Positions 47,725 through 64,000 of a DNA stretch of 64,000 nt are shown piece by piece. Each line of letters starts with the position of its first letter. Position 1 is the stretch's first letter. The notes below the pieces were generated by a model. That model did no database searches. It saw only the letters and a program-made list of their open reading frames with translations, and was not told where the DNA came from. Location of the stretch: NCBI GenBank assembly GCA_015057325.1, contig SVEQ01000010.1, forward strand, positions 1-64,000, read 5' to 3'. Position numbers and translations under genes: made by a program. Source of the DNA: Lachnospiraceae bacterium (GTDB lineage: Bacteria; Bacillota; Clostridia; Lachnospirales; Lachnospiraceae).

Positions 47725-48687
47725 ATGAATGATGCTTTAGAAACAATAAAAGATATACGATATGTGAAATTAAAGTTTAAGGTTGTAATGACGGAGGATA
47801 CAGTCCTTACAAAAAATAAAGGATCAGCACTTCGTGGTGGTATGGGAGAAATGTTGCTTCGCGCTAACTGTATTCGAGACAGAGACTGTGAAAAGTGTGA
47901 TTTTGAGAAAGAGTGTATAGTTCAAAGAACCATGTATTCCAAAATGGACAAAAGACCTTCATTTATGTCAGAGGGTGATAGTGTAGGCTATGTTTTGGAG
48001 TGTTATGACCATAGGGAACAATTTGTGGCGGGTGATGAACTGTCATTTAATCTAATTCTGTTTGGAAAAAGTATAGTGTATTTAAGCCAGTATCTTAATG
48101 CGTTCTACGCACTTGGAAGGTCGGGACTTGGCAGAAATAAAAGCAAGTTTGAAGTTGTTGAGGTACAAAACTCCGTAGGACTTCCGATTCTTGACGGAAC
48201 CAATGTATATATGGAGCGTTACAAGGTAGAAACACTTGGGAACTACATAAACTACAGGCGAAAAAAACTATTAGAAAATGGGAATATATCAGGCGATGAT
48301 TGCGGTTCATTTTCAATAAGATTTAACAATCCGCTTACGGTAAAATATCATGGAAACTTTATTAAGGAATTCAGCGTGGATGCGGTTGTTAAGGCATTGA
48401 TTAGAAGACTGTATATTCTTCAATGTTTTGAGGAGATTGAAAGTGATCTTATCGATTGGTACCCGAAAACACTTCCTGTAATGAAGGATGAGGAACATTA
48501 TGATGTGTCAATAAAACGTCATTCTAATCGTAAGAAAAGTGATATTGTGCTTAAGGGTATAGAAGGAAAAATGACTATAGAAAAAGTAAGTCCTGTTCTG
48601 CTTAATTTGCTGTTGGCGGGCGAAATAACCCATATCGGCAAGAATACAAGTTTCGGTTTCGGTGGATATATAATCAGTACTAATTAA
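47725..48687 (+). CDS. cas6: CRISPR precrRNA endoribonuclease Cas6
   Basis: Cas6 of the type III-associated family, 320 residues, which cuts the array transcript within repeats. The N-terminal signature GSALRGGMGEMLLRANC (about residues 32-48) is followed by CEKCDFEKEC, giving a four-cysteine cluster with the preceding Cys; the middle has FYALGRSGLGRNKSKFEVVEV, and the C-terminal RAMP loop is GKNTSFGFGGYII. The start at 47725 follows TTGGAGG. It is followed by two WYL genes and a terminator, and is separated from the effector operon by about 7 kb. Confidence 0.92.
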   Translation: MNDALETIKDIRYVKLKFKVVMTEDTVLTKNKGSALRGGMGEMLLRANCIRDRDCEKCDFEKECIVQRTMYSKMDKRPSFMSEGDSVGYVLECYDHREQFVAGDELSFNLILFGKSIVYLSQYLNAFYALGRSGLGRNKSKFEVVEVQNSVGLPILDGTNVYMERYKVETLGNYINYRRKKLLENGNISGDDCGSFSIRFNNPLTVKYHGNFIKEFSVDAVVKALIRRLYILQCFEEIESDLIDWYPKTLPVMKDEEHYDVSIKRHSNRKKSDIVLKGIEGKMTIEKVSPVLLNLLLAGEITHIGKNTSFGFGGYIISTN

Positions 48688-48699
48688 AGGAGAAATGAT

Positions 48700-50049
48700 A
48701 TGACATCAGCGAATTTCTTTGAAAACTTCAATGATGAACTTCGTCCGTATATGGCAGATGTGTTTAGATATGGTTGCTATGGAGATGAGAGATATCTTCC
48801 GTTATTATCTAACAAAAAGTCAGAAACCGTGTACAAGAAGTTACCGAAGATAAGTGATGCGGTAGGTAATGATGTGTTTGCACATGCAGGCAGAGGTGCC
48901 GGTAAGAATTCGGGTTCGTTTCGTTTTCAATATGACAGGTATAGCCATGATATTAATTACCTTGTAAAACTATATCAACACAGGGCGTTTCAGTCTAGAA
49001 ATGCTTTGCCGTGTATGCTGTTGATTCTTCAGTATGCATATGAAATGTGTGATGAAAACGATGATGAATTAATTACTTTTGGCTCATTTATTTCTACAAG
49101 CGAAGTTGATTACAATATCATTTTTGACGAAGATACGATTAATAATTATTTCAGCAATGTTTTCAGCCAAAACGGCGTTCTGATAAAAGAGAAAAAGGGT
49201 CAGTACAGACTTGCGTATAACCCGTTAGATGTTTTCGTGGATGATGATTATGCTCTTGAAGAATTAAAGGAAGTGTACGATGCTCTTGAGTTATATTCGT
49301 ATCGAGCTCCTGTAAAAACTCCTGTTAATATGGCAATGGAAACGCTGAGAAGATACATATACTGGAAAACATCAAGACGCGTTAAACCCAAAAGAATAAT
49401 GGGTTGTGAGTACAATTATATATTTACCGTACTCGATGATGAGTGTAGTCTGGATTTGACAGAAGCGATACAAAAAAAGAGTTTTCTCAAATGCTTTAAA
49501 TATATGCAGACGGATTATACATATATTTATCCGATAAAACTTGTGACAGAAACTCGCTATGGCAGGCAGTATCTTATTGCCATTGAATGGGATGGAACAT
49601 TTTCTGATTCGGTTATTTCATCGATTCGTATTGATAAAATACATAGAGTGGAGAACTTGGCGGAAGAAGAAAAGTCAATGGCACCAAACTTTGAGAGTTT
49701 TGAAGAACGCATAGATAAAGCCATGGAGCTCCTTGACAGAAGTTTCACGGTTGAGGCATCGGATATAGATAACATCATAACCATACGTTTTGAAAAGGAA
49801 TATGGCGGAAGAAATATATACCAAGAGGTTTTGGAAGATTTGCACGGCGGTGAGTTGGTCAGCGAAGATGATGATAGTTTTGTTGTGGCACTGCGCGTGT
49901 CACGGGTTGATGGATTAAAACCATGGCTTAGACAATTCGGACGTGCTTTTAGTGTGGTTGAGGATAGTGAGGATGCTAAGAAACTTGCATTGCAGATTAA
50001 GAATAGTCTTAACTTGATGAGGAAGAATTATGGAATTGTTTCAGATTAA
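48700..50049 (+). CDS. WYL-domain regulator 1
   Basis: A 449-residue protein with a WYL domain. The first 230 residues include an unusual N-terminal part (DELRPYMADVFRYGCYGDERYLPLLS) and a region that may be a winged helix. The WYL core is near 285-335 with YIYPIKLVTETRYGRQYLIAIEWDG and SSIRIDKIHRVE; a C-terminal WCX-like part ends at LRQFGRAFSVVEDSEDAKKLA. WYL domains sense ligands or nucleic acids and regulate many defence loci, including CRISPR types. AAAGGAGA precedes the ATG. It begins 12 bases after cas6, and its last 20 bases overlap the second WYL gene. Confidence 0.88.
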   Translation: MTSANFFENFNDELRPYMADVFRYGCYGDERYLPLLSNKKSETVYKKLPKISDAVGNDVFAHAGRGAGKNSGSFRFQYDRYSHDINYLVKLYQHRAFQSRNALPCMLLILQYAYEMCDENDDELITFGSFISTSEVDYNIIFDEDTINNYFSNVFSQNGVLIKEKKGQYRLAYNPLDVFVDDDYALEELKEVYDALELYSYRAPVKTPVNMAMETLRRYIYWKTSRRVKPKRIMGCEYNYIFTVLDDECSLDLTEAIQKKSFLKCFKYMQTDYTYIYPIKLVTETRYGRQYLIAIEWDGTFSDSVISSIRIDKIHRVENLAEEEKSMAPNFESFEERIDKAMELLDRSFTVEASDIDNIITIRFEKEYGGRNIYQEVLEDLHGGELVSEDDDSFVVALRVSRVDGLKPWLRQFGRAFSVVEDSEDAKKLALQIKNSLNLMRKNYGIVSD

Positions 50050-51112
50050 TAAAAATCGTCTGCTTGAGATATCATCAGATGTTGTCAATAGGATTACCCT
50101 GATGAACAGAACAGAGTTAAAAGCGTTGACTAAAGAGCAAATACGCATCATATTTTGTGAAGAGATGGGCGTTACTCCTGACAATAAAAAACTTGATATG
50201 CTGCAAAAAGGCGAGTGGGGTCAGGCGGTTGAAAAAATATATAGAGGTGTGGAAGTCTTAAATGATCCTGAGATAATGGAATCATTTAATCAGGAATTCT
50301 TAACTGAAACACTCACGAAAAAAAGAACGGAAGATGATACATATATCCCGATTGCTGAAGTGCCGGTTGTCCTTACATCAGCAGAGCGACAGGCGTTTTC
50401 GGGACTGCTTAATGATAAGTATTCGTGTATGATGATGTCGGAAGAAACTGAGGCAAAACTTCGTAACGCCATGCAAAAATCATGCGAACTTAACGGTGAC
50501 TCTGATGAAGATATTGATTCATCGTGCTGGACATATAAGGAACAGTGGATTCAAAGTGACAAAGATATACGGCAGCATTTATTCATAATCAGACAGGCAA
50601 TACTTGATAAAAGATGTGTCAAATTATATATAAATGATTCCGTGCTTGAGGTAATGCCTTACAGGTTGATATATACACCTCGAAAAAACGGTCTTTTTCT
50701 TCTTGCCGTCGTTGAAGATGATGTGCGTAAAATAATGCTTTGTGATGTGGATAAAGTTGAAACTACCAAGGATTTGATACGTGCAGATATAGATGATGTT
50801 ATAGACAGAGAAAAACGCATACTTGAACTGCAAATATTAAGCTATGACCGAGTTAAAGCTGATGAGATTACGGAAGATAATAGGGAATACTATGACAAAT
50901 GGCGAGAGAATGTGTTGGAACGATGCTTTGCTGTGTTTTCGCATCTTAACAAGACTGCAAAGTATTATCAGGAGACAGATGAACATCATATATCTGTAAC
51001 CTATTATGCATTTGACGAGGAAGAGATAACAAAAGATGTTCTTGCACTTGGCGAATATGTTGTTGTCAAATCTCCTGAATCGATAATTGAGAGAATTAAA
51101 GCAATATTATAA
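50030..51112 (+). CDS. WYL-domain regulator 2
   Basis: A 360-residue second WYL-family protein, started inside the end of the first (20-base overlap), implying coupled translation and a joint function. The N-terminal half is helical without a clear HTH. The WYL-like core is near 205-250: CVKLYINDSVLEVMPYRLIYTPRKNGLFLLAVVED with LCDVDKVE, and a WCX-like C-terminal region follows with FSHLNKTAKYYQETDEHHISVTYYAFDEEE. The YINDSVLEVMPYRL variant has diverged from consensus. Paired WYL proteins often form heteromeric regulators. A terminator at 51125 ends the operon. Confidence 0.82.
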   Translation: MELFQINKNRLLEISSDVVNRITLMNRTELKALTKEQIRIIFCEEMGVTPDNKKLDMLQKGEWGQAVEKIYRGVEVLNDPEIMESFNQEFLTETLTKKRTEDDTYIPIAEVPVVLTSAERQAFSGLLNDKYSCMMMSEETEAKLRNAMQKSCELNGDSDEDIDSSCWTYKEQWIQSDKDIRQHLFIIRQAILDKRCVKLYINDSVLEVMPYRLIYTPRKNGLFLLAVVEDDVRKIMLCDVDKVETTKDLIRADIDDVIDREKRILELQILSYDRVKADEITEDNREYYDKWRENVLERCFAVFSHLNKTAKYYQETDEHHISVTYYAFDEEEITKDVLALGEYVVVKSPESIIERIKAIL

Positions 51113-51124
51113 AGAATTATAGAA

Positions 51125-51156
51125 GAATCTGTAACGAAAGTTGCAGGTTCTTTTTT
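51125..51156 (+). terminator. Terminator of the cas6-WYL operon
   Basis: GAATCTGTAAC pairs with GTTGCAGGTTC around a GAAA tetraloop, followed by six Ts. It separates cas6-WYL-WYL from the MoxR operon. Confidence 0.9.
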
Positions 51157-51157
51157 G

Positions 51158-51202
51158 GTGCATCTGTTTTGGGTGAAACTTAATTATCGGATGACTTATA
51201 AT
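51158..51202 (+). promoter_or_regulatory. Shared promoter element, copy 2 (MoxR operon)
   Basis: The core at 51158-51180 matches 20 of 23 bases with 42476-42498. It ends in TGAAAC (51174-51179) and, after 17 bases, TATAAT (51197-51202). Both copies directly follow a terminator. The conserved part lies over and upstream of the -35, suggesting a shared activator or alternative sigma factor. Confidence 0.6.
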
Positions 51203-51249
51203 TCGATTATGAAGTGAAGAGAAAAAGATGATAAATGGAGGGATTTATT

Positions 51250-52191
51250 ATGATGAATCAGATTATAAGTGAAATTGGAAAAGTTGTTAAAGGGAAAAAT
51301 GATGTCGTTGAAAAGGTACTTATCGCTTTGTTTGCGGGTGGACATATTCTTATGGAGGATGAGCCGGGACTTGGTAAGACCACTCTTGCCAAAGCGGTTT
51401 CTAAAGTTTTGGGACTTGAAAGCGGTCGTATTCAGTTCACACCTGATACAATGCCGTCTGATATAACGGGTTACATGAATTACAACGAGAAGGAAAGAGA
51501 TTTTGAGTTCAGGGAAGGTGCTGTTATGTGCAATCTGTTGCTGGCAGATGAAATCAATCGTACCTCTGCAAAGACGCAGGCCGCATTGTTAGAGGCAATG
51601 GAGGAGAGAACGGTAACCGTTGACAGTACAACGTATTCTCTTCCTAATCCGTTTGCGGTTATAGCAACTCAAAATCCTCTTACAAGTGGAGGAACACAGC
51701 CGTTGCCTGATTCCCAACTTGACAGATTCATGGTAAGACTTTCGATGGGATATCCTGATGTTAATGCACAGCTGGAAATGCTAATGGGAACAAAACAGGC
51801 AGAACTTAGACAGTTAATGACAGTTGAGCAGTTTGTTGCTTTACAACAGAATATACAGGATGTTGTTTTGTCCGGTGAGGTTTGCGAGTATATCGTCAAA
51901 CTTTGTGAAAGTACAAGACACAGTCAGGACATTGTCACAGGTGTCAGCTGTCGTGGTGCAAAATCACTGGTTAATATGTGCAAATCAACAGCCTACTTTA
52001 GTGGCAGAAACTATATTATTCCGGAGGATGTTGAGAAAGTATTTGTTGATGTTGTATCGCACAGATTAGTGTTGTCGCCCAAATTAAGATCCGGCAATGT
52101 TAGTCAAAATGATGCCGCAAAACGTATTCTGGAAAGCTGTCAGAAACCAAGACTTTTACATGGTGTTTGGAACAGAAAAGTTGCCGTATAG
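51250..52191 (+). CDS. MoxR-family AAA+ ATPase
   Basis: MoxR ATPase, 313 residues, a chaperone-like AAA+ protein. Walker A is EPGLGKTTLAKAV near residue 40, Walker B LLLADEINRTSAKTQAALLEAMEE is near 97-120, and sensor 1 is VIATQNPLTSGGTQPLPDSQLDRF. A C-terminal helical lid follows. MoxR proteins act with adjacent DUF58 (vWA-like) and transglutaminase partners, which is exactly the order here. The ATG at 51250 (or 51253) follows GGAGGGA. Its operon has its own promoter at 51174-51202. Confidence 0.95.
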   Translation: MMNQIISEIGKVVKGKNDVVEKVLIALFAGGHILMEDEPGLGKTTLAKAVSKVLGLESGRIQFTPDTMPSDITGYMNYNEKERDFEFREGAVMCNLLLADEINRTSAKTQAALLEAMEERTVTVDSTTYSLPNPFAVIATQNPLTSGGTQPLPDSQLDRFMVRLSMGYPDVNAQLEMLMGTKQAELRQLMTVEQFVALQQNIQDVVLSGEVCEYIVKLCESTRHSQDIVTGVSCRGAKSLVNMCKSTAYFSGRNYIIPEDVEKVFVDVVSHRLVLSPKLRSGNVSQNDAAKRILESCQKPRLLHGVWNRKVAV

Positions 52192-52210
52192 ATGAAGGGA
52201 GTGAATGATC

Positions 52211-53269
52211 ATGTCAAAACGAATTATTTGGAGTTTTGTAATAGCAGTACTTGTATGTGCATGCGTATGGGTAAATGAGCCTGCATCATTTATTCTTGCA
52301 ATCTTTGCTCTTGGAGTTGTCGTTGCTGATATATTTTGTTGTGCCATAGGAAGTTTGTTCTTGGATTTTGATATTGAAGCTTGTACAGATGAGCAAAGTG
52401 GCAGTATTACATGGATTCTTAATATGAAGAACAGGTCGATAATACCGGTGTTTGGCATAGAAATAAAGCTTGCTTTTGAAAATCTTCTGACTAGCGGGCA
52501 AAGCGACTGTATGATTTATATGGCTATGAAACCGAGACAGAAATATGTCGAAGCATTGCCGCTTAAGGGCGTGCACTGCGGAAGATTGGAAAGCGAGATT
52601 AAGTCGGTACATGTTAAGGGTTTATTCGGACTTTGCAATATATCCGTGCCGTGTAAATGTCAGGCCGGCAATTATGGCTTCCCGCTTAAGAAGGAAATAT
52701 ACGTTAATCCGACAACGTCGGTGACAACTTCTTGCGGTGACGAGGGCAGGCTGCTTCACAAAAAAGGCGATGATCATTCGGAGATTCTTAAGATACGTGA
52801 GTTTGTCAAAGGTGATAATCCAAAGCTTATACATCATAAGCTTTCAAGCCGTATGGGAAAGAAGATGGTAAGAGAGTATGATTCAAGAATATTTGATAGG
52901 ATTTTGGTGTTTTTCTGTGTGGGAGAGTCGCCGAGTGAAAAAATGATTAATGACGTGGTAAACAATATGAGTGCCTGCTGCAAAGGATACTTGGCTAATG
53001 GAGATGAGATTGATGTACTGCTTATGCAGCGGGATAAGTCCGTCTCTACTAAATACCACATTGCAAACATTTCGGATTATGAAAGCTTTATCACACATGT
53101 GTTAGACGGAAATCTTGAAATGAACAGGACAGCGGTTATGGAGAGATTGTTAAGCGAAAATGTTTTGAAGGAATATGTTCAAATCTTATGTGTAAATGAC
53201 AGATATGACGACTCTTTGGCTGAACTTGGTGTCGCGCAGTATAGCGTATGTGAAACGGAGGCTGCTTGA
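52211..53269 (+). CDS. DUF58 domain protein
   Basis: A protein of about 352 residues with two membrane helices near residues 6-21 and 26-48, followed by a cytoplasmic or outside domain. The DUF58 hallmark is near residues 190-225: LKIREFVKGDNPKLIHHKLSSRMGKKMVREYD. The rest resembles a vWA fold in outline (RILVFFCVGESPSEKM). DUF58 proteins are the standard partner of MoxR ATPases. The start at 52211 is preferred over 52205 because of its distance from AAGGGAG; either is possible. It lies 19 bases after moxR and 28 before the transglutaminase gene. Confidence 0.9.
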   Translation: MSKRIIWSFVIAVLVCACVWVNEPASFILAIFALGVVVADIFCCAIGSLFLDFDIEACTDEQSGSITWILNMKNRSIIPVFGIEIKLAFENLLTSGQSDCMIYMAMKPRQKYVEALPLKGVHCGRLESEIKSVHVKGLFGLCNISVPCKCQAGNYGFPLKKEIYVNPTTSVTTSCGDEGRLLHKKGDDHSEILKIREFVKGDNPKLIHHKLSSRMGKKMVREYDSRIFDRILVFFCVGESPSEKMINDVVNNMSACCKGYLANGDEIDVLLMQRDKSVSTKYHIANISDYESFITHVLDGNLEMNRTAVMERLLSENVLKEYVQILCVNDRYDDSLAELGVAQYSVCETEAA

Positions 53270-53297
53270 AGATGTAATGAAGAAAGGAAGTGTAATT

Positions 53298-55415
53298 ATG
53301 CAGGAAAAAAGTTTTATTACAACCGTAAATAACAGTGAAAACAAAATATCAAAGAAGATTATAGCCTGCATAGCAGCTGTTGCTGCAGTTGTTGGTGCTG
53401 TCGGATCATTTATCATCTGTTTTGAACAAAACAGCGGACTTACAGGAATTGCAGTAGCAGGCGTAGTTGCCATGCTTATGGTTATAGCTGCTTCCTGTGT
53501 GAATTATCTTCCTGAAGTTTTGACTATGCTTGGTGGCGTAGTTTTATTTGTTGCGGATAAAAACGGTTTTTTGGCAGGCGTTCAGTGTCTGTGTAACTTT
53601 GTGATTGATAGATTTAACGCAAGAACAGGACTTGAAGTATATTCATTTGTGTATCCTGATGGCGTTGACGCAGACAGAGCATATAAGGTTATGGGGATCT
53701 ATCTTATTATAGTGTTGAGTGTGCTTGTGTACAAAATGTGTGTGAATAATCATAAGTACATATTTACCGCAGTTAATATTGGCACGATTGCAACTTTATA
53801 TTGTTTTGGGACAAAAGAAGCTTATTGGTGTGTGGTATTTTGTGTGCTTGCAGTTATGGGGATGCTTATGATGACAGAGCATCCTTCGGGCGACTGTGTG
53901 GTTGTTGATGAAAAGAGCGAGAAAAGAGTTGCGGGAGTATATGTTGCTACATGCGTTGTTATCGTGTTTGTATTTGGATTGTATGTTAAGAATAATAATT
54001 TTCAAAGACTTGATAAGGCGGATACTATCAAAGACAATCTTACCGATTGTGCTGATGATATGTTGTATAATGCCGGCAAACTTCCAAAAGGAAACTTGTA
54101 TAAGGCTATAAGCTATGAGGGCAGCAAGGATAAGCAGATAGAAGTCCGTACAGATGTGGCAGGTGTTTATTATCTTAAGGGCTATGTGGGGGAAGATTTT
54201 GATAATAATAGATGGCACGAACTTGATTACAGCAACTATACAGACTTTAAGGGTGTTTTCTCATGGATGGCAGAAAACGGATTTGATCCGTTTACACAAA
54301 ACGTACAGTATGTTGAAAGCATGGGTGCAAAACTGGAATATTCCAGTGTGGAGATAGTAAATGTCGCTGCAGATACAAAATATCAGTATATTCCGTATGG
54401 CATAAGTTGTGATGAGTTAAGTTTTGTGGGGAAAACTTACAAAGACATTAATGTGCTTGGAAGTGCAGGGAAAAAAGAGCAGAGCAACTTCAAGGTTTGG
54501 AATTACACGACAGGTCAGGGACTTGTGCTTGCTGAAGGTGAACAGGATGGTGTTTCCAATGTTCAGACAGAGTACAGAGGATATGTGTATGAGAGATATC
54601 TTGGTATCTCGGATGAATACAGAAAGTTTTTTGAAAATGCTCTTCCGTCAGATGTTGAGGGATATGCATCTGTAACTACAACAATAAGAGAATGGCTTGC
54701 TAAGGAGACAGGTGCAGCACCTTCGGAAACTAATGACTGTCTTATGTATTTTATTGAAAACGGCAAAAAAGGTAATTCGGAGTTTTTCGCCACAGCAGGA
54801 ACGTTAATGTACCGATATTACGGTATTCCTGCACGTTATGTGGAAGGCTACATGGCAAATGCGGGAGAGGAATCATTTACAGGCGAGAACTATTGCGTGT
54901 CATTGGACGGCAGTGCGTATCATGCGTGGGTAGAGATATATAAAGACGGTTTTGGGTGGATGCCTGTTGATGTCACACCGGGATTTTACTCAAACGATAT
55001 GGCAAGTCAGAGTGACACTATATCAAAACCTCGTAGTGCTAATTCAAAATCAAGCGGTGGTCAATCAGTTAAGGAAAACTCGGATAAAAAGAAAAATCAT
55101 GACATGAAGAAAATAGTATTGTTGATGCTTGCGGCTGTCGGAATCGTGTTAGTATTTGTGCTTATATATAACTTTGCGAAGTGGTGCTATATTGTGCTCG
55201 GAAGACGTATACTTGCCAAGAATCCTGATGTGGATGTGAGAATGCGTGCACAGATTGCTTATCTTGGATATTTGTTTTCAAAAGACAAAAAAGATGAGGC
55301 TGATTTGCCAATCGTAATCAGAAGCATTTTGCAGAAATACAGATATGGAAAAGAGGGTGTTACAGAGGAAGAATATACAATCTTTGTTAAGTATGTTGAG
55401 GGGGATGATTACTGA
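53298..55415 (+). CDS. Transglutaminase-like membrane protein with Ser in place of active Cys
   Basis: A 705-residue TgpA-like protein. About six helices fill residues 16-235, then a large outside part. The transglutaminase core lies at about 465-560: NDCLMYFIENGKKGNSEFFATAGTLMYRYYGIPARYVEGYM, AYHAWVEIY and PVDVTPGF. The usual pattern GxC..FA is GNSEFFA here, so the nucleophile Cys is Ser494, while the His and Asp positions remain. A last helix is near 605-630, followed by a cytoplasmic tail. The start at 53298 follows AAAGGAAG. It is the third member of the MoxR-DUF58-transglutaminase operon. Confidence 0.88.
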   Translation: MQEKSFITTVNNSENKISKKIIACIAAVAAVVGAVGSFIICFEQNSGLTGIAVAGVVAMLMVIAASCVNYLPEVLTMLGGVVLFVADKNGFLAGVQCLCNFVIDRFNARTGLEVYSFVYPDGVDADRAYKVMGIYLIIVLSVLVYKMCVNNHKYIFTAVNIGTIATLYCFGTKEAYWCVVFCVLAVMGMLMMTEHPSGDCVVVDEKSEKRVAGVYVATCVVIVFVFGLYVKNNNFQRLDKADTIKDNLTDCADDMLYNAGKLPKGNLYKAISYEGSKDKQIEVRTDVAGVYYLKGYVGEDFDNNRWHELDYSNYTDFKGVFSWMAENGFDPFTQNVQYVESMGAKLEYSSVEIVNVAADTKYQYIPYGISCDELSFVGKTYKDINVLGSAGKKEQSNFKVWNYTTGQGLVLAEGEQDGVSNVQTEYRGYVYERYLGISDEYRKFFENALPSDVEGYASVTTTIREWLAKETGAAPSETNDCLMYFIENGKKGNSEFFATAGTLMYRYYGIPARYVEGYMANAGEESFTGENYCVSLDGSAYHAWVEIYKDGFGWMPVDVTPGFYSNDMASQSDTISKPRSANSKSSGGQSVKENSDKKKNHDMKKIVLLMLAAVGIVLVFVLIYNFAKWCYIVLGRRILAKNPDVDVRMRAQIAYLGYLFSKDKKDEADLPIVIRSILQKYRYGKEGVTEEEYTIFVKYVEGDDY

Positions 55416-55466
55416 ATACTCCACAAAATCAAGTTGATTTTCATGTGTGTGAAATCTTTTGTTATA

Positions 55467-55475
55467 TGCTATAAT
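55467..55475 (+). promoter_or_regulatory. Extended -10 promoter of the cas10-RAMP operon
   Basis: TGCTATAAT, a TG-extended -10, lies 63 bases before cas10. No strong -35 is seen. It shows that the effector operon can be transcribed independently of the MoxR genes, since about 120 bases separate them. Confidence 0.6.
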
Positions 55476-55538
55476 ATACGTAGTAAGTAATATTGAAAAT
55501 GAATGATTAAATAATACTAAAAGAAGGAGAAGTGGTTT

Positions 55539-57032: not shown

Positions 57033-57034
57033 CA

Positions 57035-57643
57035 TTGAAACAGTACGATGTGAGGATTAAATTTCTTTCAGAAACAATGCTTGGCAGCGGAATGGCTGTT
57101 CCGGGAGTTATAGATAACGACATCAGGCATGATAATAATGGACTTCCTTATATGAATGCGAAAACATTTAAGGGACATATTAGAGAGCAGATGGAATTTC
57201 TTAAAAAATATGATAAGAGTTACCGTGATATAGATATTTATGGATTACTGGGCAGCGACGATAAGGATTCAGAAAAAAAACTTGGTAAGATTAAGTTTTC
57301 TGAGGTTTCAATGCCTCAGTCGGTAAAAGAAGCATTAAAACAAGCAGTAAATAATGGCAAACTCTCTAAATCTGAAGTTCTTAATTCAATCACAGTAATC
57401 TATACAAGAACGAGGATAAATGAATTCGGAGTTGCTGAAGCGCATTCGTTGCGAAAAGAAAGAGAATTAAAAAAGAACCTGATGTTAGAAACAAAGATAT
57501 ATACAGAAGATCTGACGGATGAAGAACTTAAGATGCTATATGAAAGTGTAAAAGCACTTAAACATATCGGGATGCATAAAAGCAAAGGTAAAGGATTGGT
57601 TGAATGTAGTATAGAACCGGCAAAAGAGGGGGGTGATATTTAA
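57035..57643 (+). CDS. Csm3-like RAMP protein (Cas7)
   Basis: A 202-residue RAMP of the Cas7/Csm3 group, a backbone unit that binds crRNA and may cut target RNA. MLGSGMAVPGVIDNDIRHDNNGLPYMNAKTFKGHIRE near residues 15-50 holds the aspartates at the place of the Csm3 catalytic Asp and the RAMP glycine helix; the closing loop is HIGMHKSKGKGLVECSI near 180-196. It uses a TTG start, chosen for GGAGGGA upstream and the 2-base gap after cas10. In III-Dv systems the equivalent unit is the N-terminal Cas7 of a Cas7-5-11 fusion; here it is a separate gene. Confidence 0.8.
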   Translation: MKQYDVRIKFLSETMLGSGMAVPGVIDNDIRHDNNGLPYMNAKTFKGHIREQMEFLKKYDKSYRDIDIYGLLGSDDKDSEKKLGKIKFSEVSMPQSVKEALKQAVNNGKLSKSEVLNSITVIYTRTRINEFGVAEAHSLRKERELKKNLMLETKIYTEDLTDEELKMLYESVKALKHIGMHKSKGKGLVECSIEPAKEGGDI

Positions 57644-59265
57644 TGAAATATTTAAGATATTACTTATCATTAGATGAGCCTGTAAAGATGGGAATGCAGG
57701 GAAATCAAGCTAACAGTAACGCGTTATCATATATTGCCGGTTCTTCAATTAGAGGTGCTGTCATTAATGAACTTTCTAAGGTTGTAAGCAATGATGTATT
57801 AAAGGATCACATAAAAAATACGCGTTTTTATGATGCGTATATTGTTGCCGAGGATAAATGCCTGATTCCCGTACCATTTATTTTCTATGCGGGAAAACAT
57901 GATATTAGAAATAATGACAGAGAATTATCTGAGAATCGAAAAACTGCTCTTAAGGTTAATACCAGAACAATAGATCCGCCTGCCGAGGGTGAACAAAGAG
58001 TAGATGTTGGAGGATTTTGTAATATAATAGATGATAAACTGTGCGTTCAGAAGGTAAGAAAGATTGCCAATATGCATATCTCTATTGGAAAAGATACTTC
58101 GTCAAATAAATTGTTCCGGTATGAAGCCATTGATAAAGGACAGGTTTTTTCGGGGATAATCGCATGTTCGAATGATAGTATTGATGAAGTTGAAAAAATT
58201 CTAAAAGAGAAAATTTTATATCTTGGAGGATCGAAGGGCAGCGGTTATGGTAGGTGCAGAGTAATCAAAACAGAGAATATATCTTACGAAAAAATAATAG
58301 ATCAATATGGTATTAAGCGACGTAAAGATAGCGATGTTTTGTACATATATGCTTTGTCTAATTTGCTATTATTCGATGAAAATGGTTGCGCATGTGGAGA
58401 ACCATCCAAAGAATGGATAAAAGAAAAGCTTAATTTGAAGAATGCTGAATTGATAAAGTCCTATGTCCAGACTAGCGTTGCTTCCGGTTATAATCATAAA
58501 TGGCGTGCAGGTAATGTTATGCAGGATGCGGTCAAAGCAGGAAGTGTATATGTTTATAGGATAGAGGGTGAGATTAATCAGGATATAATTGAAAATATAG
58601 AGAAAGAGCAAATAGGACTTCGCAAGCAGGATGGCTTTGGAAGAATAATTATTAATCCTGATTTTGACATAAATGAAAGAATCATGCTACAACACGAGAG
58701 TTTACAGGAACCTGTTAAAGAGTTTTCTGATGAAGATAGTTCCCTGCTATGTTTGGTTGAAAAATCAGTAAATCAGGACAGGATTAACAATTATATCAGC
58801 AATGTGGCTCTTAAAACTGCGGAAGATAACAGAAAAAGTATTGTCAGGGATTTTTCTATTACGCAGATATCCAGATTATACGGAGTAACCTCTGATATTA
58901 TTATGAATGATTATTCTGATGAAGAAATCAAACAAAAATTAAAGATATTCTATGATAGTATATTCCTTCGTACAAACATGCGTGGGGAGACTGTTTATAA
59001 AACATCAATAACTAAGCAAAAATATAACACTGCTAAACTTAAACTTCCCAATGATGAGTCTCTGACAATGGAAAAGGTTCTGGATGAGATAATTAATGAT
59101 GAGAAAGGTCATAATAATTGGGGAGTTAAAGTAAAAAATGTCAAACTTTTTAAATTTGATGGACAATTTAATGATGTTCGAATTTCTACTACTTTGATAA
59201 AAGTAAGGTTTTTGAATGAAGTTATGTATAACTTAATGCGAATGGAGGGAGGCAAAAAAATATGA
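57643..59265 (+). CDS. csx10: Csx10-like RAMP with C-terminal extension (possible Cas5-Cas11)
   Basis: A 540-residue protein. The N-terminal half is a Csx10-type RAMP region: LSLDEPVKMGMQGNQANSNALSYIAGSSIRGAVINEL, with glycine loops YLGGSKGSGYGRCRV near residue 200 and GLRKQDGFGRIIINPDF near 325-341. Residues 345-540 are largely helical and Lys-rich with no known motif; they lie where III-Dv Cas7-5-11 fusions carry the Cas11 small subunit, which is otherwise missing here. Start and upstream stop overlap in TAATG, and its own stop overlaps the next ATG. Csx10 identity is by pattern; the Cas11 part is inference. Confidence 0.72.
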   Translation: MKYLRYYLSLDEPVKMGMQGNQANSNALSYIAGSSIRGAVINELSKVVSNDVLKDHIKNTRFYDAYIVAEDKCLIPVPFIFYAGKHDIRNNDRELSENRKTALKVNTRTIDPPAEGEQRVDVGGFCNIIDDKLCVQKVRKIANMHISIGKDTSSNKLFRYEAIDKGQVFSGIIACSNDSIDEVEKILKEKILYLGGSKGSGYGRCRVIKTENISYEKIIDQYGIKRRKDSDVLYIYALSNLLLFDENGCACGEPSKEWIKEKLNLKNAELIKSYVQTSVASGYNHKWRAGNVMQDAVKAGSVYVYRIEGEINQDIIENIEKEQIGLRKQDGFGRIIINPDFDINERIMLQHESLQEPVKEFSDEDSSLLCLVEKSVNQDRINNYISNVALKTAEDNRKSIVRDFSITQISRLYGVTSDIIMNDYSDEEIKQKLKIFYDSIFLRTNMRGETVYKTSITKQKYNTAKLKLPNDESLTMEKVLDEIINDEKGHNNWGVKVKNVKLFKFDGQFNDVRISTTLIKVRFLNEVMYNLMRMEGGKKI

Positions 59266-60578
59266 TAAACCAATATATGTATTTTTTTAGAATATCTCTC
59301 AAATTGGACAGTGTATTGAGTATATCCGGTGGGGGAGATGATGAATATAATCTTGTAAAAAACGGCGAGGGAAGATATATTATTCCGTCCACAGGAATTG
59401 CTGGTGCGATTAAAAATTACATAAACTCGGATTGTCCTGAGGAATGTGTGAAGATGTTTGGGGATATTGGACACCATAGTATTGTCACTTATTACGATGC
59501 TGTATGCGAGAATGTCAACATAGAAACAAGAAAAGGTATTTGCATAGATGATAGGTACGGAGTAGCTGAAAACAGAAAGCTTTTTACTCGCTATTACATA
59601 GGCCAGGGGATGGAATGTGAATTAAAGATTCAATGTAATATTGATGATAAAAATCGTGAAAATATAATTCGCACCATTAAGCAGATTGCAGGTGCTATCA
59701 AATTAGGAAGGATACGCTTTGGCTCTAAAAAAACAGATGGTGCAGGCGTATTTAGCGTTAAGGATATTTCTTATATGGTCCTTGATATGGCTAATGATAA
59801 GGAAAGAAAATATTATATAGAAACAGATATTTTATCTATTTTTAAAGTGTGTGAAGATAAACTATCATGTGACGATATCAAGATTAGTAATTGGCGAAGT
59901 TATGTTCTTGAAGCCAAGATACCTAATGGATTATTGGTAAAGAGCGGGGAAAGAGAAAACGGAGCATCAGTTAATATGTCTAAAGAGATAGACGGGAATG
60001 CTGAATGTTACATTCCTGCTTCAACGATTAAGGGTATTATACGGTCGTATTCTGAAATGATTGCAAAATATATGAATATATCGAATGATTGTTTAGTACA
60101 AATATTTGGAAATGATAATACAGAAAAGACAAATATGAAGGCAAGCACTGTGTATGTGGACGATTGTATATTGAGAAATACTGTGACTACACGATATAAC
60201 AGAATTAAAGTTGATCGATGGCTTGGATCCACGATCTCTGGTGCTAAAACTGTGGATGAGGTTGTTTCGACTAATGGAGAAGATGTAGTATCTTTAAGAG
60301 TGTCTATTGATCGTTCCAGATATGCAGAAAGTGACGAAATTCTATGGAAGTATGCGAATGCTTTTGTATTTCTGGCACTTAGAGATCTTGGTTTAGGAAA
60401 GGTGTCTATCGGAAGCGGAAATGCAGTAGGATACGGACGACTGGAAGGTGTAAATTTAAGAATAAATGACAAGGTTTGTCCTATCGATTATAAAAATAAA
60501 AAAGTAGATGCTTCTTCGTATGAAACAGAACTTGTTGACATTCTTAATTCATTGGAGGTGTCATATGAAAATAAATAG
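59262..60578 (+). CDS. Double-RAMP protein (Cas7-2x-like)
   Basis: A 438-residue protein with two RAMP units in one chain. The first (about 1-185) has ISLKLDSVLSISGGGDDEYN, IIPSTGIAGAIKNYI and FGSKKTDGAGVFSV; the second (about 205-420) has EAKIPNGLLVKSGERENG, YIPASTIKGIIRSYSE, STVYVDDCI, VTTRYNRIKVDRWLGSTISGAK and VSIGSGNAVGYGRLEGV. The order of genes and the double build match the Cas7-2x subunit of type III-D effectors. Aspartates in GGGDDEYN could be a target-RNA cleavage site. ATG overlaps the previous stop by four bases. Confidence 0.78.
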   Translation: MINQYMYFFRISLKLDSVLSISGGGDDEYNLVKNGEGRYIIPSTGIAGAIKNYINSDCPEECVKMFGDIGHHSIVTYYDAVCENVNIETRKGICIDDRYGVAENRKLFTRYYIGQGMECELKIQCNIDDKNRENIIRTIKQIAGAIKLGRIRFGSKKTDGAGVFSVKDISYMVLDMANDKERKYYIETDILSIFKVCEDKLSCDDIKISNWRSYVLEAKIPNGLLVKSGERENGASVNMSKEIDGNAECYIPASTIKGIIRSYSEMIAKYMNISNDCLVQIFGNDNTEKTNMKASTVYVDDCILRNTVTTRYNRIKVDRWLGSTISGAKTVDEVVSTNGEDVVSLRVSIDRSRYAESDEILWKYANAFVFLALRDLGLGKVSIGSGNAVGYGRLEGVNLRINDKVCPIDYKNKKVDASSYETELVDILNSLEVSYENK

Positions 60579-60924
60579 AATAGAAGATATAAAGAATATT
60601 GATATTAATAATTATTGTTATGCATGGGTTCAAGAATACGACAGTGTAAAACTTGGCACAGTAAATGATGTTAGCATTGATTATGATAATATTATTGAAG
60701 CAAGATTTTTTTCTTCGGATAAAGAACTTCATATTTTTTGCTATGATGATGAAATGTGTGCAGTTGAGATTATAAAAGAGGATGAAGATGATTATTTTGA
60801 GGAAAAACAGATATTAAGAAAGCGCTTTGGCAAAAATATTACATTGAGGTACTATGTTGATTATGAGGATGATGGACAGGCGTATATAGTTAATACTGTT
60901 CTGTCAGATTGCGAATTGAACTAA
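60565..60924 (+). CDS. csx19: Csx19-like III-D accessory subunit
   Basis: A 119-residue protein. The middle NIIEARFFSSDKELHIFCYDDEMCAVEII and the ending LRYYVDYEDDGQAYIVNTVLSDCELN match the csx19 pattern of a beta sheet followed by a Y-x-D-x-DGQA-Y-x-x-x-x-L motif. Csx19 is diagnostic of subtype III-D and is a structural subunit of the III-Dv effector. The start at 60565 follows GGAGGTG and overlaps the double-RAMP gene by 14 bases; an upstream in-frame ATG at 60508 lies too deep in that gene. Confidence 0.72.
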   Translation: MKINRIEDIKNIDINNYCYAWVQEYDSVKLGTVNDVSIDYDNIIEARFFSSDKELHIFCYDDEMCAVEIIKEDEDDYFEEKQILRKRFGKNITLRYYVDYEDDGQAYIVNTVLSDCELN

Positions 60925-60935
60925 GGGGGGATATC

Positions 60936-63137
60936 ATGAATTATTCGTACGCTCCATATAATTTTATACCGTTTACACCATCTGTAAAAACGCCGGTCGC
61001 TTATTCAGATAGAGAAGACCTGCCGGTACATGATGTTTTTTTGGATGATAGATTATCAGGCAGAATAGAATATGATATAACTGCATTGACAGATATCATT
61101 GTAGGTGGTGCTGCTTCGGATAAAAACAATAAGAAGTTTTTTAAAAATGGACAAGGGCAATATGCAATTCCGGGAAGTACTATGCGTGGTTTTTTTAGAA
61201 CCCATGCGGAAATTTTGAGTTTTTCATATCCTGATATGATTGAAGATAAGGTATTTCTGTATCGTAAATTTGCTGATGCCTGCGTAAAGTTAAGGAATGA
61301 GTACTCTTCAAGAATGAAGGTCGATGAAAATTCAGAATATGGAATTCCGGCTGGTGTAAAAGCGGGATATATATATTGTAAAAAAGAAAAAGAGGGCGTG
61401 TGTTATTATATCAGACCTGTAAAACAGTTTGGATCATTAGGTACTACTTTTTTTAAAGTACATGAAAACACTTTGCGAAAATCAGGTGTGTTATCTGGAC
61501 ATAGTATGTATACTGAGGAATTGCCACCTTTTAAACCTAGTTCATCCCAAAATGCACTTGATGAGTATAAAAAACAATATATCCCAATTTTGCAAGGAAT
61601 GAAAAATACAAATTACAAAGCCTATCGCAGTAATAGGATGATTAAATTTGATTATAAAGAAGGACATCTTACAGGAATTAATAATGACAAATCACCTTAT
61701 TCCGGTGTTTTATTGAATTCTTCATACATTGACGGAAAAACACATCATTATTTTGTATCTGCAGATATAAATACATCAGTTAATTCCATTCGGATAAACG
61801 ATATGTATATAGAGGCTTACAGAAATGATCTTGAGAGGAACAGAATTCAGAACAGGAATTTGAAACATCCTTTTTACTCATTGGATGAAAAAGATATTAA
61901 GGTAAAGAATAATGATGAGATTACAAAAAAAGGAAAACTATTCTTTTATAAAGTTAATTCGGATGGTACGTTACTTGGTTTTGGTCCGACTCCATACTTC
62001 AGGATTCTATACAAGAATCCGGTAAAAAAAGGTATACCATATAATGTGGAATCGGGATATGACTATGTAAAAGCTATGTTTGGTTATGCGGGAAAAGGTG
62101 AAAGTTATAAAAGCAGAATTTCTTTTCAGAATGCGGTGGCTCATTCGGTTATCGGTACAGACAGTAAATGTATGATGGTAAGTGGCACTCCTAGAGGAAC
62201 TGCTGTACAGATGTATCTTGATCAAACAGGAAAGAATGAAACAAATCTAAAAAGCTATAATGATGACGATTTTTTGCTGGGTGGATATAAGGTATACTGG
62301 AAGAGAAGCAATCCTATAGAGTATAAATCAAATAAAGACAACATGAATGCGACTTACGAAATGGTTAAAGCGGGAACAGTTTTTTCGGGAAGTATATACT
62401 TCAATAATCTTAGCCGAGAAGAACTGGGGTTACTTCTTTTGTCTATACAGTATAAAAACCCAGAGGAAGAAAAACGTGATGAAACATATCTTATTGGCGG
62501 TGCTAAAGCCTACGGTTTTGGAAAAATTAAGCTAGATAATATCAGATTATATACTGATGATACTCGTAAGTCATTTATTAATATCAATGTTATAGAAAAC
62601 AAAAAAACAGTTGATGATATTGAAGGATATAAAAACGATTATAAAGAATCACTGAAAAATACATATGAAATCGATTTAGAAAAAACTGCAACGTTTAGAG
62701 TGTATAAGGCATATGCTATGCAAAGTAAGGTTGATGAATACGTAAAAGCATATGATACCGGCTATATGAAAATAAGCAGGAAAGCGGATAAGATTAATCC
62801 AACTTACCCTGACAGATATCCTTTGGCCGACATTGAAACAATATTAAAAGAAAACTTAAATGCAGAAAGTGAAGTCTCATCCAAAACGATAGATGTATTG
62901 TGGCGTTCATGTAAAAAACCGGATTCCAATGTAAAAAAACTTATAGAAAAGCATTTGGGAACTAAAGTAAATCTAATTTCGTCATCTGAAACAATTAATC
63001 TAATTAACGTTAAAAAGTATGATTATAAAACCATAGTTTTTGATGAAGTAAGGATATCAAAAGATGAGATTAATTGCTTGAAGGAAGATGGAAGAATAGT
63101 GTTGCAGATTGAGAGAAATCAAGTAGTTGAGAAGTGA
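60936..63137 (+). CDS. TIGR03986-type RAMP protein (Cas7 with insertion)
   Basis: A 733-residue RAMP of the large III-D type. It starts with the family pattern YAPYNFIPFTPSVKTPV, then ALTDIIVGG and YAIPGSTMRGFFRTHAEILSFSYPDMIED near residues 80-108. A long middle part follows. The second half has GYDYVKAMFGYAG, SRISFQNAVAHSV, TYEMVKAGTVFSGSIYFNNLSREELGLLLL and GGAKAYGFGKIKLDNIRLY, closing a RAMP split by a large insertion. A tail of about 180 residues is basic. The start at 60936 follows AAGGGGGG. It is the largest subunit of the proposed effector. Confidence 0.82.
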   Translation: MNYSYAPYNFIPFTPSVKTPVAYSDREDLPVHDVFLDDRLSGRIEYDITALTDIIVGGAASDKNNKKFFKNGQGQYAIPGSTMRGFFRTHAEILSFSYPDMIEDKVFLYRKFADACVKLRNEYSSRMKVDENSEYGIPAGVKAGYIYCKKEKEGVCYYIRPVKQFGSLGTTFFKVHENTLRKSGVLSGHSMYTEELPPFKPSSSQNALDEYKKQYIPILQGMKNTNYKAYRSNRMIKFDYKEGHLTGINNDKSPYSGVLLNSSYIDGKTHHYFVSADINTSVNSIRINDMYIEAYRNDLERNRIQNRNLKHPFYSLDEKDIKVKNNDEITKKGKLFFYKVNSDGTLLGFGPTPYFRILYKNPVKKGIPYNVESGYDYVKAMFGYAGKGESYKSRISFQNAVAHSVIGTDSKCMMVSGTPRGTAVQMYLDQTGKNETNLKSYNDDDFLLGGYKVYWKRSNPIEYKSNKDNMNATYEMVKAGTVFSGSIYFNNLSREELGLLLLSIQYKNPEEEKRDETYLIGGAKAYGFGKIKLDNIRLYTDDTRKSFININVIENKKTVDDIEGYKNDYKESLKNTYEIDLEKTATFRVYKAYAMQSKVDEYVKAYDTGYMKISRKADKINPTYPDRYPLADIETILKENLNAESEVSSKTIDVLWRSCKKPDSNVKKLIEKHLGTKVNLISSSETINLINVKKYDYKTIVFDEVRISKDEINCLKEDGRIVLQIERNQVVEK

Positions 63138-63168
63138 GATGGATTGATTTTAGAAAGAGGTAATAATA

Positions 63169-63534
63169 ATGTTCATCAATTTTTCAAACCACCCCAGCGA
63201 CCGTTGGGATAAATCACAATTAAATGCTGCCTCGAAGTGGGGAGAGATAGTTGATATATCATTTCCAAATGTTGATCCTGCTATGTCTGAACAAGATATA
63301 GCGGGATTGGCAACGGAGTATATCGAAAAGATATTATCATACTCTCCCGATGCTGTTATGTGTCAGGGAGAATTTACCCTGTCGTATACAGTGATTAGCC
63401 AACTTGTCAAAAAGGGCATTACAGTTGTTGCAGCTTGCTCAAAACGTGTTGTTAATGAGAAACTGGTGGATGGAGTACAACAAAAAGAAGTTATCTTCTC
63501 ATTTGAACAGTTCAGACAATATAAGGATAAATGA
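63169..63534 (+). CDS. Small CRISPR-linked protein, putative ring-nuclease-like (Csx15/16/20-type)
   Basis: A 121-residue Rossmann-like protein: it begins MFINFSNHPSDRWDKSQLNAASKWGEIVDISFPNVDP, has IAGLATEYIEKILSYSPDAVMCQGEFTLSYTVISQLVKKGITVVAACSKR, and ends in a short beta hairpin. Proteins with this start occur beside type III loci. The overall plan (short N-terminal strand with NFSNHPS, C-terminal AACSKR) recalls the small CARF-derived ring nuclease families Csx15/Csx16/Csx20, which destroy cyclic oligoadenylate. I cannot assign it to a named family. AGAGGTAA precedes the ATG; it is the last gene before the array leader. Confidence 0.6.
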   Translation: MFINFSNHPSDRWDKSQLNAASKWGEIVDISFPNVDPAMSEQDIAGLATEYIEKILSYSPDAVMCQGEFTLSYTVISQLVKKGITVVAACSKRVVNEKLVDGVQQKEVIFSFEQFRQYKDK

Positions 63535-63536
63535 TA

Positions 63537-63638
63537 AGATTATATTCGAAGTTTTTTTATTTGAATACATATAAGAATGTAATTACACTTTGCGAGAAAT
63601 ACGACATTTCTGTTTCGACCCTGTATAGATTGTCTTGA
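63537..63638 (+). pseudogene. Fragment of a helix-turn-helix (transposase-like) protein
   Basis: Just after the last cas-linked gene an open piece reads RLYSKFFYLNTYKNVITLCEKYDISVSTLYRLS then stops. TLCEKYDISVSTLYR is a typical helix-turn-helix of transposase-family N-termini. There is no start codon and no continuation, so it is a scar of an inserted element between effector genes and array. Confidence 0.4.
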
Positions 63639-63708
63639 AATTGAAATGGGTATGTTAGTTAGGAGAAAAAATGATAAAAATATGAGTGGATAATTGAGAT
63701 TTAGTTGA

Positions 63709-63737
63709 TTGATTTTTCGGTGTTATTATTGTATAAT
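63709..63737 (+). promoter_or_regulatory. CRISPR leader promoter
   Basis: TTGATT (63709-63714) and TATAAT (63732-63737) have a 17-base spacer. A transcript would start near 63744, 36 bases before the first repeat. This sets the array direction as rightward, with an AT-rich leader between 63639 and 63779. Confidence 0.7.
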
Positions 63738-63779
63738 ATTTTTTGTATTTAGTAAAATCAAGGCTTTGCAGGTTCGAGG

Positions 63780-64000
63780 GTAGAAATGGAAGAAGCCCGA
63801 GTAAGGGCATTGACACACGTCCTCTATGAGATACTTCACGTTGTCAACATCTTGTAGAAATGGAAGAAGCCCGAGTTAGGGCATTGACACACGGCATCAA
63901 AATTGCCCTCAATCGTCGTTTCAGGAGTAGAAATGGAAGAAGCCCGAGTTAGGGCATTGACACAATTTTTTCCCAATTTTATTTATGGTTGTCTTGTGTA
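63780..64000 (+). CRISPR. CRISPR array, start (three repeats seen)
   Basis: 37-nt repeats at 63780-63816, 63854-63890 and 63927-63963, beginning GTAGAAATGGAAGAAGCC and ending GGGCATTGACAC. Spacers of 37 and 36 nt lie between, and 37 bases remain after the third repeat at the window edge. The first repeat has GTAA where the others have GTTA, in the loop of the GCCC/GGGC hairpin. The last eight bases ATTGACAC fit a type III 5' tag. All three repeats are followed by A, so the exact border could shift by a base or two. The array probably continues. Confidence 0.95.

Follow-up and report, generated by a model that had tools for sequence, protein, structure and literature searches.

A type III-D CRISPR locus in a Lachnospiraceae genome and a candidate CARF-sigma factor switch encoded downstream of it

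Cyclic oligoadenylates (cOA) are the signals with which type III CRISPR systems switch on nucleases, proteases and membrane effectors, and the links to transcription met with are few: the Calp system, Csa3 and type III-E. In type III-E, control runs through protease cleavage. According to the excerpts of the published work drawn on here and below, type III-E is without Cas10, and in Synechocystis the III-D Cas10 responds to target RNA by making cOA, which activates Csx1 (PMC11026444), while a representative Csx20 degrades cyclic tetra-adenylate (cA4) and Csx1 loci are associated with Csx20 (PMC12409355). Here we analyse a window of 64,000 nucleotides, positions 1-64,000 of contig C10 (98,870 bases) of a Lachnospiraceae genome (3.05 Mb, 24 contigs), which carries a type III-D CRISPR locus. 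The locus itself belongs to a known kind and has taken in what looks like a passenger insert. Our main interest is in a feature beyond the window's end, further along the same contig: a pair of genes encoding a solo CARF protein and a partner that resembles sigma factors. If our reading of this pair is correct, it would provide a direct route from the CRISPR second messenger to transcription, one that is simpler and directly testable, and CRISPR detection may then also reprogram gene expression.

Past the CRISPR array at the end of the window, contig C10 encodes, in order, a VirD4-like ATPase, ClpP, a RelA/SpoT-domain protein, a J-domain protein, the solo CARF protein, its 330-residue partner and two CARF-HEPN proteins. 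A second pair is found on contig C6 (C numbers denote contigs of this genome, G numbers other genomes, L numbers stretches of DNA and A numbers alignments or profiles). The genes in question, here and below assigned by Pfam, PADLOC and NCBIfam profile scans, are:

C10:70234-70857, solo CARF2 (PADLOC CARF2 family)
C10:70861-71853, CARF partner of 330 aa, with no significant family match, starting 3 bp after the CARF gene
C10:71846-74431 and C10:74503-76149, two CARF-HEPN genes (PADLOC CARF-HEPN families)
C6:445-2441, minus strand, second pair, a solo CARF2 with a partner of 442 aa, flanked on either side by an array of the window's repeat

The PADLOC matches of the C10 CARF and CARF-HEPN genes stand at 5e-71, 6e-22 and 3e-32, and both CARF-HEPN proteins contain an R-X4-H motif (RNDTNH, RNNADH). 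The solo CARFs of C10 and C6 are the only matches in the genome to A1, a profile built from seven CARFs.

The pair recurs. It is present in five relatives from the same order (L047, L051, L056, L064, L065), and a search of GTDB genomes with A1 returned 28 loci, five of which (L069, L071, L072, L079, L088) are contigs of G genomes already included, four of them having entered A1. A full-length, co-directional partner of 268-562 aa accompanies the CARF gene in 26 of the 28; the remaining two are L074, with a 105-aa open reading frame (ORF) near a contig end, and L094, where the contig ends inside the CARF gene. The two genes are separated by -11 to +55 bp in the 27 pairs listed, with start codons of our choosing, and over 27 pairs the distances among CARFs correlate with those among partners (Mantel r 0.88; 0 of 5000 permutations), a correlation that shows the two to travel together and says nothing of binding. 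Among 392 order genomes the CARF is matched in ten, in one case (L135) by a CARF-HEPN protein, and nine of the ten solo CARFs, two of them from our own genome, have a partner. As to context, III-D genes lie in the flanks of 18 of the 28 loci (BLAST); L073 and L075 have other type III genes, read by eye, and L074 has only ClpP and VirD4.

Several comparisons suggest that the partner belongs to the sigma-70 superfamily. Partners were aligned as 27 pooled sequences, as a second pool (A8) and as subfamilies A5 (type a, which includes our own C10 gene), A4 and A6, and were compared by hhalign with seven sigma factors of our own genome and with a larger set of sigma proteins, 14 in all, of which 11 come from our own genome and the others from L049, L053 and L087. 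The 27 pooled partners scored 54.1 (E 1.1e-6) against the seven factors and 50.8 against the 14-protein set, the only set with which reversed and shuffled controls were made for this pool, these reaching at most 15.8. Against the same 14 proteins A8 scored 39.7, A4 43.2, A5 37.6 and A6 28.9; no control, whether reversed or one of the 30 shuffles, exceeded 17.9 in any comparison. A6 aligns with the C-terminal part of the set (controls at most 14.6). Against the seven factors the scores were 46.6 for A6 (reversed 22.3; 40 shuffles at most 16.4), 40.3 for A8 (reversed 15.1, shuffles at most 14.2) and 30.7 for A4 (18.0 and 20.4, respectively). Similarity to sigma region 2 was found by hhalign for the 27 pooled partners and, with the 14-protein set, for A5 and A4, and a region 2-like pattern, Y-[DN]-P-x-K-G-x-F, can be read by eye in several partners.

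Searches with single profiles point the same way for some members. A sigma hidden Markov model (HMM) run against 1623 ORFs placed the L086 partner (E 1e-6) inside the ranks of the sigma factors, with the partners of L083 (0.021), L088 (0.058) and L090 (0.14) directly below them. NCBIfam sigma models match five of eight partners scanned, all below cut-off (L086 4.7e-7, L133 6.7e-4, L090 0.002, L072 0.041, L093 0.089). Sigma regions 3 and 4 are at most hinted at: Sigma70_r3 is matched below threshold in L093 and L090, and a C-terminal helix-turn-helix (HTH)-like pattern is visible by eye. The L133 partner, which lies outside all models, is hit by the partner HMM at 2.9e-14 and by the sigma HMM at 4e-6 (among the ORFs of the L133 locus). 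A sigma branch in III-D is supported independently by two sigma genes that lie divergent to a III-D cas10, at L049:89-820 (minus strand) and L053:5682-6386 (plus strand), whose products score 61.2 and 53.1 bits with the NCBIfam sigma70-ECF model (cut-off 42.9); no solo CARF was matched in the examined stretches of L049 and L053. We consider it highly likely that the partner family as a whole is a divergent branch of the sigma-70 superfamily and, taking our own C10 partner alone, probable that it is such a protein.

The likely source of the signal is the system encoded in the window, whose cas genes are:

47725..48687, plus strand, cas6, CRISPR RNA (crRNA)-processing endoribonuclease (Pfam CRISPR_Cas6 2.5e-11; PADLOC Cas6 3.3e-61)
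55539..57032, plus strand, cas10 (III-D), HD-less, with AGDD cyclase motif (PADLOC Cas10d 7.2e-120, residues 6-495; motif check)
57035..57643, plus strand, cas7 (Csm3-like), 202 aa, unfused to csx10 (PADLOC Cas7_IIId 4.5e-50)
57643..59265, plus strand, csx10 (cas5 of III-D), 540 aa, with a long C-terminal extension (PADLOC Cas5_IIId 9.9e-55; NCBIfam Csx10 7.5e-24, below cut-off)
59262..60578, plus strand, double cas7 (cas7-2x like), two RAMP stretches (Pfam 1.7e-19; PADLOC Cas7_IIId 1.9e-52)
60565..60924, plus strand, csx19 (PADLOC Csx19 3.2e-31; NCBIfam TIGR03984 3.5e-7, below cut-off)
60936..63137, plus strand, TIGR03986-family cas7 (cas7-insertion type; NCBIfam 9.1e-93, above cut-off)
63169..63534, plus strand, csx20, predicted cOA ring nuclease (PADLOC Csx20 5.4e-37, nearly full length; NCBIfam 2.5e-10, below cut-off)

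The original prediction, made from the bare sequence, had named all of these products except Csx20, together with an array, and had assigned them to subtype III-D; they are indeed present, with profile matches far above chance, and the profile searches it had proposed as a check sent the RAMPs to III-D and not to III-A or III-B. The TIGR03986 cas7 scores 312.6 bits against an NCBIfam cut-off of 161.35, and four other products stay under theirs: Csx10 (84.6 of 177.3 bits, yet with the Csx10 model as its best NCBIfam match), Csx19 (30.1 of 35), Cas6 (21.4 of 58.65) and Csx20 (40.8 of 70). In Cas10 the AGDD motif begins at residue 299, so that the cyclase motif associated with cOA signalling is intact, and an HD dipeptide is absent throughout the protein; AGDD is among the motif variants listed, in the portion of the survey available, for Cas10s from loci with known effectors (PMC11229360). 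With csx10, a Cas10 lacking an HD domain, csx19 and a TIGR03986 RAMP, the window by all appearances encodes a signalling-type III-D system whose set is III-D1-like. What did not hold up is the description of this subunit set as unusual, as its composition matches that of known III-D1/III-Dv systems (PMC11026444, in excerpt) and cas7 and csx10 are likewise unfused in L047-L050 and L053. We have accordingly rejected the idea that the set is new in itself, since profiles and relatives show a known composition.

From the genes, their order, homologies and motifs and the recurrence of the pair, which are observations, we infer a signalling route, including cOA synthesis, the ligand, a contact between CARF and sigma factor, the direction of control and a regulon. 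Cas6 would cut the array transcript, and the crRNA would be carried by an unfused III-D1-like complex whose HD-less Cas10, through its AGDD site, would produce cOA once target RNA is bound. The signal is probably cA4, because Csx20 is present. The two CARF-HEPN ribonucleases on C10 would sense cOA, and so would the C10 solo CARF, which might thereby free or activate its partner sigma factor and direct RNA polymerase to a defence regulon; the pair on C6 may answer the same signal in trans, and Csx20 would break the signal down. That this III-D system signals by cOA both to HEPN RNases and to a CARF-sigma transcription switch that is reset by Csx20 has, in our estimation, slightly better than an even chance of being right. 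The wider proposal is more tentative and falls a little short of even: that CARF-sigma is a recurrent two-gene switch not described before, that it puts a dedicated, fast-diverging sigma-70-family factor under the control of a solo CARF with no protease or anti-sigma cleavage, and that it occurs twice in this genome and has also been adopted by a non-CRISPR system with VWA, PP2C and kinase genes.

Several observations weigh against this reading. Curated sigma cut-offs are reached by none of 27 partners in Pfam (these include L051 and L064, both cut by the end of the stretch) and by none of the eight scanned with NCBIfam; in Pfam only two of the 27 have even a sub-threshold sigma match, the other weak matches being to HTH or unrelated families, and NCBIfam gives no match for three of the eight (L067, L079, L083), L067 being the closest homologue of our own C10 gene. 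The subfamily containing that gene, A5, scored 18.3 against the seven sigma factors, barely over its controls (reversed 14.5, shuffles at most 16.9), and rises clearly above controls only with the broader 14-protein set. In the reverse search, with partner HMMs against sigma factors, the best match is 1.2e-4 (L053, A8) and the rest are at 0.013 or above, with unrelated ORFs interspersed. PDB sequence searches with partner alignments returned nothing for A2, a non-sigma protein as best match for A6 and FliA at E 0.5 for A8, and a PDB search with the CARF profile A1 found no CARF chain. The C10 pair lies 6.7 kb downstream of csx20, with other genes between; the solo CARF of L134 has no partner within its 1.5-kb flank; and the examined flanks of six of the 28 CARF loci (L086, L087, L089-L092) contain no match to the window's cas proteins. 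Nor did a comparison of the regions upstream of VirD4, ClpP and RelA with those of L067 give anything clear by way of a regulon or shared promoter, no motif being found.

The sub-threshold scores of the partners would fit an ordinary III-D1 locus without a transcription branch: defence would be by cutting target RNA and by the CARF-HEPN RNases, and the solo CARF would be a ring nuclease encoded beside an unrelated helical protein. Ring nuclease activity is possible for stand-alone CARF proteins (Crn1; PMC12409355, in excerpt), and CARF-HEPN effectors do exist on C10. A predicted ring nuclease is, however, already supplied by Csx20, the controlled profile-profile scores favour sigma homology of the partner, and a neighbour of no consequence sits poorly with a full-length partner at 26 of 28 CARF loci. 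We therefore regard this explanation as unlikely.

The six loci without cas matches could also mean that the CARF-sigma module serves stress responses or defence in general and not CRISPR specifically, that it became joined to III-D by defence-island linkage and that its ligand need not be made by Cas10. Consistent with this, a CARF-sigma pair is followed by a VWA gene in two possibly non-CRISPR contexts, L086:7010-18307 and L133:1498-3612 (the latter VWA gene read by eye); the L086 locus also has PP2C, kinase, helicase and MoxR-type genes. Against it stands the distribution of the CARF, which is matched in 9 of 22 order genomes with a III-D Cas10 and in 1 of 370 without (Fisher 8.8e-12), an association that is overestimated because the query was derived from III-D loci and our own genome, the count includes our own genome, and the nine include the CARF-HEPN protein of L135. 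We give a general module a rather small chance, and the CRISPR-linked switch remains the reading that we carry forward.

We turn to the layout of the window. Between the end of cas6 and the start of cas10 lie 6.9 kb, occupied by two WYL genes and three genes whose products, MoxR, DUF58 and transglutaminase, were assigned by eye, outside the profile scans:

48700..50049, plus strand, WYL-domain regulator 1 (WYL1; PADLOC WYL 4.7e-12; Pfam WCX slightly under cut-off)
50030..51112, plus strand, WYL-domain regulator 2, overlapping WYL1 (PADLOC WYL 8.8e-10)
51235..52191, plus strand, MoxR-type AAA ATPase, opening a probable passenger module (homologues in L120 and L121 55% identical)
52205..53269, plus strand, DUF58-type protein within the same probable passenger module (L120 and L121 have homologues)
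53196..55415 (ORF as listed, start provisional), plus strand, transmembrane transglutaminase-like protein, closing the probable passenger module (G530 and G515 have near full-length homologues; query 53271-55412)

The original prediction had noted this arrangement, with cas6 and the WYL genes some 7 kb off and a MoxR module in between, and had suggested that it is not a standard III-D layout and may be a regional variant. The displacement of cas6 stands. Among 20 distinct relatives that show both genes (repeats of the same contig removed, L124 included), cas6 lies at most ~1.1 kb upstream of cas10 in 16 (L048, L055, L058-L061, L063-L065, L076-L078, L080, L083, L084, L124), with 44 bp between the two in L124, from the same genus, and downstream of cas10 in four (L051, L071, L081, L082). 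The regional variant finds little support. Full-length homologues of MoxR, DUF58 and transglutaminase occur in two genomes of the same genus (G530 and G515; L120 and L121), adjoining a gene read by eye as deoC and with no WYL or cas matches around them in the 7-kb contig of L120 or the 18-kb stretch of L121, and because of this the block looks like a passenger. As a regular CRISPR component we have rejected it, given that it exists apart from cas genes in those genomes and is never found between cas6 and cas10 in relatives (0 of 20). That the WYL and MoxR genes function in a regional III-D variant is thus very improbable, even with WYL1 beginning 12 bp after cas6 and WYL genes being enriched near CARF genes (PMC4012209, in excerpt). 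A search of 149 other genomes of the family returned no homologue of WYL1 itself at E<=1e-8. Judged by these comparisons, the unusual point of the locus is the 6.9-kb insert and not the gene set.

Three transcription units, separated by a terminator and new promoters, had also been proposed for this region, and here the evidence is wanting. Terminator-like sites number 6, compared with 6.6 (sd 2.5) in shuffled sequence, and none falls in either intergenic gap (51113-51234 and 55416-55538); promoter-like sites number 78 (60 of them listed), compared with 68.4 (sd 7.6), no convincing excess. Operons split by terminators were rejected on these grounds. The two gaps, each of ~120 bp, allow three units without demonstrating them.

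The array lies at the window's end:

63709..63779, plus strand, array leader, with a sigma-70-like promoter match at 63709-63737 (TTGATT-17-TATAAT)
63780..64000, plus strand, CRISPR array with three repeats in the window, a fourth repeat from 63998 extending past the window end

The repeat, GTAGAAATGGAAGAAGCCCGAGTWAGGGCATTGACAC, folds into a 4-bp stem followed by an 8-nt 3' tail, ATTGACAC (-8.4 kcal/mol, z -2.7), and the tail would fit a Cas6-type 5' tag. Allowing up to 2 mismatches, the first 22 bases of the repeat are found at 23 places in the genome; C10 has 4 of these, C9 has 11, C6 has 6 and the end of C20 has 2. These copies form dispersed arrays at C9:248413-249170, C6:17-112, C6:4703-4943 and C20:258833-258927, and C20 and C6 may be neighbours because two arrays sit at contig ends. 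The leaders of the C9 array and both C6 arrays are alike, and the C10 leader matches these three over roughly its last 35 nt. The sole Cas1 match in the genome (PF01867) is on C17, with its own, different array, so that none of the III-D arrays was seen to have an adaptation gene next to it. The C17 locus (L066:9178-14437) comprises Cas1 and, by eye, a Cas4-like gene and the gene of a Cas12a-like protein of 1245 aa, with a six-repeat array. Spacers of the C9 array, which the phage search covered, gave no match at E<=1, and viral contigs contained 0 exact matches to the 24-nt cores taken from two C10 spacers out of three. About 5 kb from the III-D-repeat array at the contig end of C20, L017:4225-8922 has, by eye, RtcB, PrfH, MoxR and VWA/metallopeptidase genes.

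Related loci are few and varied. Cas10 is matched at E<=1e-10 in 22 of 392 order genomes (our own included) and 3 of 26 genus genomes, with 25-39% identity outside our own genome, and the III-D locus is therefore patchy. In many relatives cas7 and csx10 are fused as a gene of ~630-800 aa. One genome of the same genus, G519 (L067/L124; L124:4542-19797), has cas6 58%, csx20 73%, CARF 72%, VirD4 66% and ClpP 78% identical to ours, with a cas10 just 27% identical and a fused cas7-csx10; the effector core has apparently been exchanged within a conserved frame. We note that a short VirD4-like ATPase recurs near CARF or III-D genes (L014:4255-6267, L067:12437-15900, L074:1973-3822, L084:8644-9927), with ClpP in three of the four, and it is possible that the two form a further ancillary pair; we found no report in the literature joining type III CRISPR, ClpP and VirD4. 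Related large proteins are encoded beside III-D arrays in two same-genus genomes (L014:6777-9200, minus strand, 808 aa, with a RelA/SpoT domain; L124:14211-16916, minus strand, 901 aa). An 841-aa protein at L063:2312-4837 has a C-terminal Csx20-like stretch 49.6% identical to our Csx20 and reads by eye as a CARF-HEPN-Csx20 fusion.

Lastly, we consider how the locus and the pair compare with known systems, as these appear in the available excerpts of the work cited. The locus resembles III-D1/III-Dv, for which cOA signalling has been demonstrated in Synechocystis, in its Cas10 without a working HD, csx10, double cas7, csx19 and insertion-type cas7 (PMC11026444). Unlike III-Dv, it has separate cas7 and csx10 genes and so does not show the cas7-cas5-cas11 fusion of that type, and unlike both it has no adjacent adaptation genes, a cas6 lying 6.9 kb off and a solo CARF-sigma pair nearby. 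Its Csx20 matches the PADLOC model nearly full length and stays below the NCBIfam cut-off, and so the activity of the described protein (PMC12409355) is a predicted one here. Titles and abstract openings of the papers that our searches returned describe no CARF-sigma pair, and a mention may exist in Makarova 2020, Shah 2019 or Shmakov 2018. An effector survey left out candidates from loci with a known effector, some being added later by association (PMC11229360, as excerpted), and may therefore have overlooked a pair that sits next to Csx1-type genes. Like CalpL-CalpT-CalpS (PMC11229360), the pair is proposed to carry a cOA signal to a sigma factor; in Calp a SAVED-Lon protease cleaves an anti-sigma factor, whereas here a solo CARF stands beside a sigma-like protein. 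Among ten neighbours scanned, PADLOC yields the CARF2 and CARF-HEPN families, with no Lon or SAVED best match (a weak CARF_LON match, 8.7e-4, to the L016 CARF is low in the list), and no protease or anti-sigma factor was recognised in the pair. Type III-E, with Craspase, Csx30 and a sigma factor (PMC10028731, PMC9729208), likewise has a CRISPR-associated sigma factor; its sigma model, NF041236, is absent among the listed NCBIfam matches of the eight partners scanned. The CARF-sigma pair appears distinct from Calp, III-E and Csa3, and we provisionally regard it as new. As in Csa3 (PMC8699464), a CARF would be coupled to transcription, but Csa3 is a fusion of CARF and winged HTH domains, whereas here the coupling would run between two proteins, the second of them sigma-like.

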